NCBI GenBank assembly: GCA_022578605.1
Contig: MU394077.1
Coordinates: 1 to 64,000 of the forward strand
Source of the DNA: Camillea tinctor
Taxonomy: Eukaryota; Ascomycota; Sordariomycetes; Xylariales; Xylariaceae
DNA length: 64,000 bases
Reading direction: 5' to 3'
The position numbers and the translations under genes are program-made. Below, piece by piece: positions 5,337 to 12,291 of this stretch. The notes under the pieces were generated by a model. That model ran no database searches and had not been told where the DNA came from. It saw nothing but the letters and a program-made list of their open reading frames with translations. Numbering within the stretch: position 1 is the first letter of the stretch; every line of letters begins with the position of its first letter.

Positions 5337-5349
5337 TTATAGCTGTATA
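5337..5349. repeat. 13-bp target-site duplication, left copy of retroposon 1
   Basis: TTATAGCTGTATA is found here and again, base for base, at 6199-6211. The two copies exactly bracket retroposon 1, as expected for target-primed retrotransposition. Confidence 0.88.
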
Positions 5350-5572
5350 TGATGATGATGATGATATATTTAACGTCCAGTGCAGGAGCCGGAACTGAAC
5401 TATTTACTATGGTATTTAGTTACACCCTGAGCCTGTATAAACTATGGGACGGCTGGAGTAAGGGGCTTATGCCTCTGTACCAGCGTGTTGAAAATTTATA
5501 TAGAAAATCTTCCGCGCTAGTAATAGCGCTTTACTGTTAGCTAGCCTTCTCCAAGGCCTTGCTAGTAAGTTG

Positions 5573-5860
5573 GTCGGTGACAGCACCCTATAGGAAGCCA
5601 CCCTATAGGAGGCTACCCTGTAGGGGGGGTGTCAGCGATGGTGGGGTTGGCGATGGGGGGTGTGTGGGTCGATAACAGCTACCCTATTGGATAAAGAGGT
5701 GTTAGCGATGGGGGGGTGTGTGGGTCGGCAACAGCACCTTGTAGGAAGCCACCCTATAAGAGGCTACCCTGTGGGGGGGTGTCAGCGATGGTGAGGTTCG
5801 TTGGTCGATAACAGCTGCTTTATTGGATAAAGAGGTGTTGGCGAAAGTGGGGTTGTTGGC
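5573..5860 (-). repeat. internal tandem duplication in retroposon 1 (unit about 151 bp)
   Basis: The block beginning GTCGGTGACAGCACCCTATA at 5573 recurs as GTCGGCAACAGCACCTTGTA at 5724. The second unit is slightly shortened. Shorter sub-repeats of the GTGTCAGCGATGG type occur inside. Copy 2 has a related internal repetition of about 62-66 bp, so array length probably varies within the family. Confidence 0.8.
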
Positions 5861-6115
5861 AACAGTTACCCTGTTAGTGGGGCTGTCGGCAGTGGATATT
5901 TCGGTCGCTAACATTGCCATTTGGCTAATGCTTTTTAGCTGCTTGGCAGCTCCATTTGCAGTGCTACTCTAAGATGTTGGCGGGGGAGGTGTGTATGCCG
6001 GCAATTAGCCGGCAATAATATGGGTGCTCGGCGAAAAGTTTTGCCAATAATGCTTTTATTGGCTATAAACAGCCAATAAAAAGTGTGTATGCCTTGAAAA
6101 AAGGGATAGTTAGTT

Positions 6116-6197
6116 GGACCACAATGGGATTCGAACCCATTACATTAATATTTTATACTAATGTCTGCCAGGCGCTTAACCACTGCGCCATGTGGCC
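6116..6197 (-). other. tRNA-like head with Pol III A and B boxes
   Basis: The minus strand folds as a tRNA: a 7-bp acceptor stem (GGCCACA with TGTGGTC), a D-arm closed by GCGC/GCGC, and a T-arm ATGGG-TTCGAAT-CCCAT. The A box TGGCGCAGTGG and B box GGTTCGAATCC fit the Pol III consensus. The anticodon arm is not canonical. In its place is a long hairpin, ACATTAGTAT-AAA-ATATTAATGT with one wobble. No anticodon can be assigned, so this is a SINE promoter head rather than a working tRNA gene. Confidence 0.8.
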
Positions 6198-6198
6198 G

Positions 6199-6211
6199 TT
6201 ATAGCTGTATA
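6199..6211. repeat. 13-bp target-site duplication, right copy of retroposon 1
   Basis: Exact match to 5337-5349. It directly follows the first base upstream of the tRNA-like head. Confidence 0.88.
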
Positions 6212-9200
6212 AAGTGTAAACTAAAATTACCGTAATATTTGCTTAAAGTTATATTATTTAAATTTTTTAAAGCATTTTTAATATTTTATTAATGCTTTTT
6301 TAAGTATAAAAGCTATTAAATAAAAGTCGTTATTTTCGATATTTTGTATAAAAATTAACGCTTACGTTGTTTTTTATTATAAGGTATTAGTTGCATAGTT
6401 AAGGGTTTTTTATTTTAATATTTAGGGGTTAAAGGTTTAAAAAACGCTTTGGTTTATTATAAGTAGTAATGTTACAAGTTTTTGTAATTAGTCCATATTT
6501 TTTAAGGCTATAGCATTTTTATCTTTAATAATTTCTTATTGTTTTTTTTTTTTAAACTGTTGTTATTATTATTGCTGGGTTTTTTGGGTTGACGGACTTG
6601 GTTGATTGTTGCTTAACATTGTAAATGGTGATAGCGTTAAAAAAAAAGGTAATATAGATCGTTATTTTTAAAAAAAAAGGAAATATAAGTTATACGTTAC
6701 AAAACGAAATGTTTAGAAAGCTTGTTTATTTAACATGTAAAAAAAAATGTTAGTGTCGTTACTGCTATATTTTATTTTGCTGTGTTTTTAAATAAAAGTA
6801 CTAAATACTAACAGTAGTTTTTCGTATTTACTTTAAATTGCTATGCTTTTAAATAAAAATATAAAATATTTAAAAAAACTTTTACTTTGCAAATCTATAT
6901 TGCTATATGTTTAGCAATATTAATCAGTGTTAATAAGTATATATACTAAAAAAATAAAAATAATAACAAGTATAAGAAACGGTTATGTATTTGTGTTTAA
7001 AAAAAAACTATCTAACTAAGGTTGCGTAGAAAAGCGCAACTTATTTATGTGCGGAGTATATTGTGACTTTTTATTTTTGTTATGCAACCATCATAGTAAA
7101 ACTAAAATTAACAATAGCGTTAAACTTAAAACCTGCTTTTATAAAAAAAACTAAAAAAAAAACAATATAATAATAATATAGCAAATAACTTTTTTTTTAA
7201 AAAAAAAGCTTAAAAAAATAAAAAATTTTATAAACAAAAAATAGTAAAACCGAAACTTTAAAAAGTTTAAAACTTTATAAAGTTAAGTAGCGTTTATAAA
7301 AAACGAAAAGATATTTTTTTGCAACATATACAAATAAATTAAAAAAACCAATACTTTAAAAAAAAATATAAAAAAAACAAACTTAAAATAGTAATTAGTA
7401 ACATTTTAATGTGCTTTTAAGCTTATTTTATTTTAATATAGTCTTTATAAGTATAGCTTTTTTTAAAATAATAAAACTATTATAATAATTATTAAGCTTT
7501 AATTTAATTAACTTTAAATAGTAATAATAGTGCTATAAAAATTTAACAGCTTAAATAAACGTTAAAAAAAGTAACTATACTTTTTTTAAGCTAACGTTTA
7601 AAAAAAATTATAAACTTATAATATAGTATTAAAAGCAGCAAATAGCGCTTAAATAAACATTATACTTATTTAAAAATTTTAAGTTAGTACTTAAAAAAAT
7701 AAAAAAATAACTAAAACTTATTTAAAATATAATGCTTTTTTTTTATTAAAAATTAAAAAAAATAAAAGCTTAAAGTTTTTATATATATATATATAAAAAA
7801 CTATACTTTTTAACGTTTTAATTAAAATTATTTATAACATTAAATATATGCGTAACAAAAATAAATAATATTATAATTTATAATATATATATAAATAAAA
7901 AGTTTTTGCAAAAATTTTTTTTAAAATTAAAAAATTAAAAACTTAAATTAAAAAAGGTATATAAAAACGATTTTAACGCAATTTATTAATTATAGCAATT
8001 TAAGCATAAATAAAAATATAATAAACTTAAATAATAAATTATAAACTAAATTATAAATTATAAGTTTAAAATATTAAACTTAAATAAACTTATTTATTAA
8101 GTAAAAAATATTATAAACTTAATATTATTTAATATTTTTAATAATATTATATAAATAAACTAAAAAATATATATTAAATTAAACTATTATATATTAAATT
8201 GTTAAGTATTAATAAGCATTTTAAAAACTATATTATTAAAGCGCTTTAGCTTTACGAAAAATGCTTTTTTAAAATATTTTTAATTGTTAATATTATATTA
8301 AATAATACTTTTTTTTTTTTAAACATAATAAAAAAAATAAAAAAATTTATAAACTTTTTTTAATACTTTTAATAAAGTTAAAAAAGCATTAAGTAAGCTT
8401 AAATATAATAAAAAGCGTAATGCTATTTAATAAAATAAAAAATACGTAAAATATATTAAAGCTTTACGTAAAGTAGTAAAAAAATAATTTAAAAATTAAT
8501 AATTACTTAATATAAAGCTTTTAAAAAAATTAAAAAAAAAATTAAAAAAAAATTAATAAAGCAAATAACAATAAAAACATTTTTAAAATTGTTAGCTAAT
8601 ATAAGCTTAAAAACAATTTTTGCTTTTTTTTTTTATATATAACGGTTTAACGGTTATAAATATTGTAAATAAAATATAGCTATTTTAAAATAAAGTATTT
8701 ATATTAAAAGTAAATAAAGAAAATATTATTAACTTATAACGGCTACTTATTTTTATAAATGTAGATTTTTTTATATTTAAAAAAAAAATTACAAAAAAAT
8801 AAAAATATTTTTTTATAAAATTAACACGTTTTGTTAAATAAAGTAAAATTAGTATATATTTATATTGCTTATATTTTTTTTAAAAAAAATAAGTTTATAG
8901 CTTTTTTTTTATAAAAAGCATAGTTAATTATAAACTTAATAATAAAAATGTTTTATAAAATATGCTTAAAATATAAGTATTATTTAATGCATTTTTAAAT
9001 AATTAAAATAATAATGCTATTAAAAGCTAAAAAAAAGATTTTATTATAATTAAGTTTTAAAAGCTAATATTATTACTTTTTTATTTTAAAAAAAATTAAA
9101 ATAGCTAATAGTTAAATATATAATAAACTTTATAATAAAAAAAGCGTTATTTATTATTAATAGTTTAAAGCTTTTTTTAAAAAAATAGTTATTAACTTTA

Positions 9201-9906
9201 TAGTTTACGTTATATATAATATAAAAAAAGTGCTTAATAAAAAAAAAGTATTATTTTTAATAATAAACGTATTTAAAACATTTAATATAATTTTTTAAAA
9301 AAAACTTATTTTATGTTTATAAAAGTAAAAATAGTTAAATAATATAATTAAATAAGTTAAATTTTATATAATAAATAAAAAAGTAGCAATTTATATAAAA
9401 AATGTTATAATTGCATTTACTTTACTTTTTTACAAAGTATTGTAAAAGTTTTTAGTTTTATTTATATTATTTATATTATTTATATTATATATTAAACTAG
9501 TTTTTAAAAAAGGCGCATTTAATATAAAGTTTAATTATGTAAATAATATAGCTATTTTTAAAGTAAAAAATTTAATTTAAAAAATTATAAAATAATTAAA
9601 AAAAACGTTAAAGTTATTTTAAGCTAAAAAAAGCATAATGCTTTTTTTTTAACTTTATTAAATATAAGCTTAAATATTTTTATAAAAAATACAATATAAA
9701 AAAAAATTAATATAAATTAAAAACTTTATTATATATTTTTTAAAAAAAAAACAGTTAAGTAGCTTAAAATATACTTTAATTTTAAATTGCGCTTTAAAAA
9801 TTACGTTATAATTTAAAAAATTAAAGCACTTTAAATAACTAATTATATTAAACACTTTAATAAAGTAATTAAAAGCGCTTTATTAAATAAAACAATTAAA
9901 GCAATT
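6212..9906. repeat. RIP-like AT-rich DNA without features
   Basis: Only A/T-rich sequence with strong TpA excess and short homopolymer runs. No coding stretch, tRNA or further retroposon copy was recognised. A short TA dinucleotide run lies near 7778-7794. Confidence 0.7.
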
Positions 9907-9919
9907 AAAATATATATAA
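9907..9919. repeat. 13-bp direct repeat, left flank of retroposon 2
   Basis: AAAATATATATAA here equals 10660-10672 exactly. Because the sequence is low complexity in an AT-rich setting it is weaker evidence than the duplication around copy 1, but its length and position match. Confidence 0.65.
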
Positions 9920-10659
9920 AGGCCACATAGCGCAGTGGTTAAGCGCTTAGCAAACATTAATGTAGAAATTAATGTAATAAGTTTAAATTTTATTGTAATT
10001 TAATTAACTATCCTTTTTTTTAAGGCATAATACTTTTTATTAGTTATTTTATAGCTAATAAAAGCACTATTAGCAAAACTTTTTGCTAAGTACCTACATT
10101 ATTGCTAGCTAATTATTAGCATATATATATATCTTGCTAATATCTTAAAATAGCACTGCAAATAGACTAAAAAGTATTAGTTAAATAAAAATGTCAGCAA
10201 CTAAAATCTTCACTACTAATAGCTTTATTAATAAGGTAATTATTGCTAATAATTAACCTTACTATTATTAACACTTTTTATAAAGTAGCCCTTTATAAAG
10301 TAACTATTACCGATTAACCTTACCATTATTAACACCTCCTTATTTAATAGGGTAGCTGTCGTCGACCCACATACCTATTGCTAACCTTACTATCGCTAAC
10401 ACCCCCTTACAAGGTAGCCCTTTATAGGGTAGCTGTTACCAACTAACCTACTAGCAAGGCCTTAAAGAAGGCTAGCTACGGTAAGGCGCATTAGCGCGGA
10501 GGATTTTCTATGTAAATTTTCAATACGCTGGTACGGGGGCTTTCGAGGCCCCTTATTTCTGCCATTCCATAGTCTATATAGGCTTAAAGTTGTAAATAGC
10601 TAGTTAGTTAGTTTTTATCGCCCGCCCCGGACGTAAAATATATTATTATCATTATTATC
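9920..10659 (+). mobile_element. tRNA-headed SINE-like retroposon, copy 2 (RIP-mutated)
   Basis: About 740 bp in the opposite orientation to copy 1 and collinear with it: tRNA-like head from 9921, hairpin block about 10015-10110, repeated middle, shared 3' body, and a tail of TATTATTATCATTATTATCA ending at 10659. The head keeps the A box (TAGCGCAGTGG). The B box has decayed from GTTCGAATC to GTTTAAATT by C-to-T and G-to-A changes only, so Pol III transcription is unlikely. The 5' half is heavily AT-mutated, while 10.4-10.65 kb is less so. Confidence 0.8.
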
Positions 10660-10672
10660 AAAATATATATAA
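10660..10672. repeat. 13-bp direct repeat, right flank of retroposon 2
   Basis: Exact copy of 9907-9919, immediately after the simple-repeat tail. Confidence 0.65.
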
Positions 10673-12026
10673 TATTAATAATAATATATATAGTAAAAAC
10701 ATAATAACTTAAATATTATTAATAAAATATTTTAAAAAATAAAGTAATACGTATTAATTATAAAGCTTAATTAATTATTTTTAATAAATTTTTTTAAAAT
10801 AGTAGTTAAAGCAATGCTATTAATATAAAAAATAATTAATATATTAATATTTTATAAAAAGTTAAATATTTTACTATTAAAAGTATTTTTTAAATAAATA
10901 CGTAATAAGTATTTAATTTAACTTAAAGCATTAAATTTTTAATATTTTTTAATAATAAAAGTAAACTTTAAAAATAACTTAAAAAAAATAAAATTATAAA
11001 TTATAAATATGTTAGTTTTTTTATGCTTATATTTCAATTTTTTTAATAAAAGTTAATTTAAAGCTTTTTTTTTATTTTGCAAAAAAAGTAATAAAAGTTA
11101 TAAAGTATAAATATTAATTTAAACACTTTTTTTTATTTAACTTAATTTTTTATTTAAATAAATTTAAAATTTTAAATATTTATATTAATTAAAAGTTTAT
11201 AACATATTAAAGTAATAAAAAGTTATATTTTTTTTTATAAACTTTTTAATTAAATAAAAGTTTTTAATATAAAAGTAATTATTGCGCAAAAAGCTATAAA
11301 ATAAATAAAAATAAAATAATATAATATTATTTTTACTTTTATTAGCTTTTATTTATATTTAAATAATATAGCGATAATTTAAAAACTTTTTAGCTATTTT
11401 TTTTAATAACTTTTAAGTTAATTTTGTTGCTTTTATAAAGACAATTAACTGTATTTATTTTTTTATTTATATTATATAATAGTTTTTTAAATATAAAAAC
11501 ATTTTTAAAAACAAAAAAGCAAACTAATAAGCTAAAAAAAGCATTAATTTTAATTATTTTAATTGCTTTTTTTTTTAATTTTTTTAAACTTTTTATTTTA
11601 ACTTATACTTAACGCATTAATAAGCTTAAAAAACATAATACTTTTATTAAGTAGTAAATATAAAATACTTTTTACTTATATTAAAAATAAAAGCTATTTA
11701 TAGTTTTTATTTTTAAAAAGCTTACGTTTAGTTATTAAACTTTATATTGGCTTTTTACTAAACGCATAAATTATAGTAACTTTGCAAATTATTACTAACG
11801 CTTTAACTATTTTAAAGCAATTAATTGCTATATATGTTAATATAGCTAAAAATAAAACTTTAACTATATTATAAAATGCTAACATACTTAACATACAATA
11901 TAAAAATTTAAAATTTGCTTAAAACGTAAATCTTATTATTTAGTTGGCTATAAAAGCTACCTTAACTTTATAACCTTTTTTGCGCAGGTTAACCTATATA
12001 AAAAATAAAAACTATAATATAACTAA
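10673..12026. repeat. RIP-like AT-rich DNA without features
   Basis: AT-rich filler with no recognised gene. The part just before 12,027 may hold the missing 5' portion of retroposon copy 3, mutated beyond recognition. Confidence 0.6.
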
Positions 12027-12291
12027 TAAGCAAGGCTTATAGAAGCTAATTACAATAAAGCAACTAACGTTGCAAAAAAAACACGGTTTAAATAAATAAA
12101 AAGCATAACTATAATCTTTAAAAAAAAAAAGTAAAAGGATCTTTTTTGTTTATTTTAATACGTAAGTACGAAAAACCCACTTTTACTGTCTTATAGTTTA
12201 TATAGGTTTAAGGTATAATTAAGTATTATAGTAGTTAATTTAGCTCCGGCTCCCACATTAAACGTTAAACATATTATTATCATTATCATTA
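12027..12291 (+). mobile_element. SINE-like retroposon, copy 3 (3' part only)
   Basis: The stretch from GCAAGGCTTATAGAAGCTA to the tail ATTATTATCATTATCATT aligns with the last 260 or so bases of copies 1 and 2. Shared landmarks are TATAGTTTATATAGG, GCTCCGGCTCCCAC before the tail, and the same ATT/ATC tail. No tRNA-like head is visible upstream: it is either a 5'-truncated insertion or its 5' part is lost to mutation. Orientation is the same as copy 2. Confidence 0.75.

Follow-up and report, generated by a model that had tools for sequence, protein, structure and literature searches.

The 849-bp element near the start of the window, by which we mean the whole 64,000-nucleotide stretch of Camillea tinctor DNA analyzed here, is a full-length copy of a tRNA-derived SINE that we name SINE-A. 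Its tRNA-like head contains A and B boxes, it belongs to a dispersed multicopy family with common ends, and the duplications that flank its copies differ from one insertion to the next. The joint explanation that we favor, with a probability of roughly 0.9, is that of a tRNA-headed SINE whose predicted Pol III transcript is copied by a LINE via a tail shared between the two elements, the copies then decaying by RIP (repeat-induced point mutation). RNA polymerase III would transcribe SINE-A from its A and B boxes, the reverse transcriptase of the LINE would recognize the shared tail of the SINE RNA, the LINE enzyme would copy this RNA by target-primed reverse transcription at a nicked target site and the fungus would afterwards mutate the copies by RIP. 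Transcription of SINEs by polymerase III is described in an excerpt of PMC5063351, and an excerpt of PMC3747384 describes many SINEs whose 3' end is common to a partner LINE and is recognized by 'stringent' LINEs.

Structure of SINE-A in the Window

The features of the element and of its surroundings are collected in Table 1. The window lies on a contig of 512,150 bases (C27) in a genome of 44.7 Mb and 154 contigs. Its GC content is 17.2% over the first 14 kb and 46.3% from 15 kb onward, which places SINE-A within an AT-rich block at the contig start. The same block contains, at 1415-1853, an AT-rich tandem array with periods of 20, 62 and 81 bp that includes AAACCGGAAAG.

Table 1. Positions of SINE-A and of associated features in the window
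Feature	Position	Strand	Basis
Full-length SINE-A, 849 bp	5350-6198	minus	family copies and alignment
Target-site duplication, copy 1, TTATAGCTGTATA	5337-5349	no strand	identical to copy 2
Target-site duplication, copy 2, TTATAGCTGTATA, 13 bp	6199-6211	no strand	identical to copy 1
tRNA-like head	6116-6197	minus	Rfam RF00005; consensus fold of 14 heads
A box TGGCGCAGTGG	6180-6190	minus	read in sequence; pattern match at agreeing position
B box GGTTCGAATCC	6127-6137	minus	read in sequence
Tandem-repeat core, unit spacings of 151 and 136 bp	5569-5854	minus	repeat families D1-D3
3' tail common to the LINE, terminating in (TCA)5	5350-5512	minus	alignment
RIP-degraded LINE copy, 3' end with shared tail, SINE-split (repeat unit at least to 7358)	at least 7358-12286	plus	sequence comparison
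RT motifs of the LINE (DxxxAFD, GxPQGSPxSP, YADD), in-frame, RIP-compatible	9266-9547	plus	motif test
Second full-length SINE-A, RIP-mutated, nested in the LINE	9921-10655	plus	alignment
Duplication of nested SINE, copy 1, 16 bp, differing from copy 2 by a single C/T	9904-9919		
Duplication of nested SINE, copy 2, 16 bp	10657-10672		

Read on the minus strand, the window copy starts with CGGCCACATGGCGCAGTGGTTAAGCGCC and terminates in (TCA)5 at 5364-5350, the ATC-type tail that an earlier note on this DNA had described. That note had also recorded a perfect 13-bp target duplication, a tRNA-like head, A and B boxes whose strand it did not state and a length of 849 bp with internal tandem units, and all of these are borne out. 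The two copies of the duplication are identical, both boxes lie on the minus strand (6190-6180 and 6137-6127) and the head covers the full length of the Rfam tRNA model with 39.2 bits (E 3e-06, cut-off 29). It folds with acceptor, D and T arms and has a longer hairpin in place of the anticodon arm. ARAGORN calls no tRNA gene within the window. The tandem core is built from two pairs of units, one of 2 x 60 nt, 151 bp apart and 88% identical, and the other of 2 x 59 nt, 136 bp apart and 83% identical. Judged by ORF size alone SINE-A has no protein-coding capacity, with only two ORFs of at least 50 aa (63 and 72 aa) touching it, and the repeat analysis reported no terminal repeats for it.

Both boxes are intact in the window copy, and G-to-A changes distinguish the intervening loop from that of young copies. 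In the 16 SINE-A copies whose GC is 0.47 or higher, runs of 5-7 T follow right after the tRNA head, near position 95 in 15/16 and near position 115 in 16/16; the corresponding runs in the window copy are T6 and T5. These runs could end Pol III transcripts ahead of the tail.

Dispersal, Target-Site Duplications and Empty Sites

The genome holds at least 92 pieces that match SINE-A, copies and fragments together, and these are clustered in nests. From the stretches retrieved we have aligned 43 copies that are complete, or almost complete, at either end, a sample biased to the best matches and to nests, with lengths of 709-921 bp. Flanking duplications scoring at least 12 were found for 26 of the 43, as against 2 of 252 control pairs in which the left flank of one copy was joined with the right flank of another, a difference that rules out chance duplication. 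The duplications differ among copies and vary in length around 14 bp, the commonest value. The remaining 17 copies have no duplication at this score, which decay and nesting may explain in part. The AT-rich targets of SINE-A are ambiguous with regard to a target-site motif. The earlier note had reasoned that a single-copy element, or one whose other copies were devoid of flanking duplications and of a common tail, would not be a SINE; when this is applied to the 43 copies, 17 of them without a duplication at this score, its proposal of a tRNA-headed fungal SINE family stands, the element being multicopy, flanked by target duplications and provided with a common tail.

These data also bear on a quite different origin of the window element, namely a genuine tRNA gene or pseudogene that happens to lie beside an unrelated tandem repeat and a chance direct repeat. 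While the head does score above the Rfam tRNA cut-off, ARAGORN does not call it, and head, core and tail recur jointly in 43 full-length copies whose duplications in many cases differ. Such an arrangement is refuted by these copies with their distinct flanks, and we give it practically no credence.

Insertion into previously uninterrupted DNA can be followed directly at many of the sites. For 15 of the 26 SINE-A insertions with duplications an uninterrupted homologue, in which the flanks are joined, was found at 80% identity or better. Seven of the 15 have at least nine matches each and are counted as solid, and the single matches for C20_535001_2315 and C42_68001_8882, which lie at their own locus, should be discounted. 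All of these figures come from a stricter search, the first version having been too permissive in AT-rich DNA. Among the 26 sites tested that of the SINE-A copy at 5350-6198 has no uninterrupted homologue; the second copy in the window, nested in the LINE, has nine such matches.

Of the 43 copies, 41 are flanked by DNA with GC below 0.30. LINE sequence is present on both sides of 10/43 and on one side of 8/43, and on neither side of the copy at 5350-6198. One AT-rich LINE/SINE nest, at about 537-560 kb of contig C20, and read over all but 545-549 kb, is internal to the contig and has DNA of normal GC to either side; it may represent a repeat island or centromeric DNA.

The strong clustering of SINE-A in nests, the many fragments and the likeness over 5 kb of two LINE/SINE blocks, on contigs C45 and C64, are what would be expected had segmental duplication or recombination within AT-rich nests, rather than retroposition, been the chief means by which the copies multiplied. 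However, the SINEs of these very blocks have different duplications, each with uninterrupted homologues, and the listed duplications differ from copy to copy. Segmental duplication can explain some fragments but hardly full-length copies with duplications of their own, and as the main route of spread we consider it improbable. The LINE copy in the window is itself an uninterrupted homologue for the SINE-A insertions on C45 and C64.

A Probable Partner LINE

Fragments that match just the last ∼160 bases of SINE-A recur in the genome, many of them beginning at query positions 687-690. Upstream of the tail several of the fragments are mutually alike for kilobases and are unlike SINE-A. The shared stretch aligns from about a GGATTTC motif through the ATC repeat, and the 3' end of SINE-A is homologous to that of a longer element in the same genome, which we identify below as a LINE. 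GC contents of 12.8-22.7% were obtained for five stretches of this element, the highest value coming from a stretch that includes SINE pieces, and no Pfam domain was found in a read-through of one copy.

A RIP-aware test was used in which codons compatible with reverse transcriptase motifs after C-to-T or G-to-A changes are sought in order and in frame, the motifs being DxxxAFD, GxPQGSPxSP and YADD, which we take to be those of reverse transcriptases. The core motif GxPQGSPxSPxLFxxY was found in 7 of nine LINE stretches in the sense direction and in 0/9 in the antisense direction, the nine including one (C27_3) that comprises the 3' part only. The ordered, in-frame triple is present in 4/9 stretches, as compared with 0 of 300 simulated sequences drawn from the composition of one LINE stretch. 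Because RIP-compatible motifs occur in order and in frame we conclude from them that the longer element is a LINE encoding a reverse transcriptase, and we infer that it belongs to the Tad1 clade. With its shared tail it is the probable helper of SINE-A.

SINE-A copies are of two kinds over their last ∼70 bp, one reading ...GACGTTAAATATATC and the other ...GACGTAAAATATATC. The 16 aligned LINE ends resemble the former, so that a second LINE family may exist.

The tail is also relevant to whether SINE-A could be a non-autonomous element that captured a tRNA-like promoter and was moved by the machinery of LTR elements or DNA transposons. Two long open frames with reverse transcriptase do occur elsewhere in the genome and could be thought to supply such machinery. 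Set against this are duplications whose length varies around 14 bp, a one-sided trinucleotide tail common to a LINE and the lack of terminal repeats in the repeat analysis, all of which disfavor a derivative of this kind and make it very improbable.

Decay of the RIP Type

Relative to the majority state of 17 GC-rich copies the changes in AT-rich SINE-A copies are almost all C-to-T or G-to-A, and these copies qualify as targets of RIP. One of them has 175 C:G to T:A changes, 0 in the reverse direction and 1 transversion. All CpN contexts are mutated, with CpA giving the top raw count in most copies and CpC or CpT in some. GC contents form a continuum, from 0.53 down to 0.20.

At the GC-rich end reverse transitions and transversions make up a sizeable share of the changes, as for the copy at C64_231001:1903 with 12 RIP-type changes, 8 reverse changes and 14 transversions. 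We read these as subfamily differences, and RIP is therefore not the sole source of divergence among GC-rich copies. When the 16 copies whose GC is 0.47 or higher are compared, the two most similar show 97.2% identity. Measured against the GC-rich majority over 735 positions the window copy at 5350-6198 has 40 RIP-type changes, 5 reverse changes and 3 transversions; it is fairly young, outside the least mutated group, which includes copies on C42, C11 and C21.

Search for an Intact Helper

The final 211 bases of SINE-A, used as a query, gave at least 44 matches (40 of 98 candidates scored). Among the matches listed, those of 82% identity or more extend back beyond the shared stretch and are SINE-like; one at C64:225619, of 81% identity, covers the shared part alone and is LINE-like. 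No un-RIPped tail of the partner LINE is present among the 44 matches listed, although the assembly may lack some repeats. Taken with the number of RIP-type transitions in the window copy and the identity of the closest pair, this leaves unsupported the suggestion of the earlier note that the family is possibly still active.

SINE-A might have outlived its helper, in the sense that the LINEs with matching tails would all be RIP-dead and the near-intact SINEs would postdate the decay of the LINEs that host them, but we put this forward tentatively and think it rather unlikely. If true, the SINEs would have been moved by a LINE copy that has since disappeared or is absent from the assembly; alternatively another LINE, for example one on contig C78, would have acted in trans.

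The C78 element, at about 2.9-7.2 kb, is an un-RIPped LINE whose frame is apparently broken; it has endonuclease and RT domains and terminates in TTTAAATATA followed by a CTT repeat. With this CTT tail and with no BLASTN match to SINE-A at E 1 or better it was rejected as the tail-homologous partner. By eye, the TTTAAATATA at its end resembles the terminal motif of SINE-A. Two further RT matches, at C26:39685 and C14:683221, fall within open frames 1248 and 1200 aa long; on the basis of the short RT match alone these are probably LTR-type elements that escaped RIP.

A Shorter SINE and the Origin of the Head

In a survey for the parent tRNA we inspected 19 tRNA-model matches out of the 59 listed, the latter being a scored fraction of 1531 candidates. 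Three of those inspected, on contigs C3, C44 and C147, are heads of a second, shorter SINE of about 365-415 bp, and no obvious parent tRNA of SINE-A was found among the remaining matches inspected. By eye alone, the D arm of SINE-A is most like that of a tRNA-Ile (C30).

Seven copies of the shorter SINE match nearly the whole of a 123-base query. The three that were read with their flanks (C3:72998, C22:246513 and C101:39912) each lie between a pair of 13-14-bp repeats; the pairs match exactly in C3 and C22 and show, by eye, a mismatch in C101. The right flanks are of ordinary GC, 0.45-0.48. The two SINEs are 81% identical over 81 nt of the head and 71% identical over 164 nt of the tail, and no similarity was found between head and tail, where the bodies of the elements lie. 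As judged by eye from the alignment, pairing in the head hairpin and in the T arm is kept through two-sided changes between the families.

Relation to Known Fungal SINEs

The earlier note had regarded the element as far longer than most SINEs, but such a length is not unusual among fungi. In excerpts of PMC5063351 fungal SINEs range from 472 to 900 bp and include mgsr1 (800 bp), Egr1 (700 bp) and egh1 (900 bp), which we liken to SINE-A by length alone. Both a length of ∼850 bp and partnership with a LINE are already known kinds of property in fungi (excerpts of PMC5063351 and PMC3747384); with SINEs of 700-900 bp and SINE/LINE pairs in print, SINE-A belongs to a known kind. We found no name for the family in the literature among the matches listed, nor did any of the listed titles or abstract openings deal with SINEs from Camillea or Xylariales, the taxa being named in part of the search only.

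Several described elements come close. Mg-SINE of Magnaporthe is, like SINE-A, tRNA-derived and has a partner LINE, MgL/MGR583, with a common 3' end (excerpt of PMC3747384); compared by description it differs in being 472 bp (excerpt of PMC5063351) rather than 709-921 bp. Also by description, SINE2-1_BG of Blumeria is similar as a fungal tRNA SINE paired with a Tad1 LINE, Tad1-24_BG (excerpt of PMC3747384). Blumeria hordei is without RIP according to an excerpt of PMC10648671, in contrast to the heavy RIP-type mutation of SINE-A. AfuSINE2-1a of Aspergillus fumigatus, with the LINE I-1_AF, has in common with SINE-A a 3' end like that of a Tad-clade LINE and short trinucleotide repeats, but its 3' repeat is ACT as opposed to ATC and its LINE-like stretch is at 210-335 (excerpt of PMC5063351).

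Beyond what the earlier note had described, the present analysis adds a probable helper LINE, a second SINE and a RIP series. A fungal SINE/LINE pair is thereby added to what seems to be a short list, with two fungal rows in a table of PMC3747384, as excerpted, and AfuSINE2-1a. The two SINEs, of very different sizes and with a common type of head and a LINE tail, illustrate modular assembly clearly, and the SINE-A copies, ranging from near-unmutated to saturated, form a natural series for the race of RIP versus SINE amplification.
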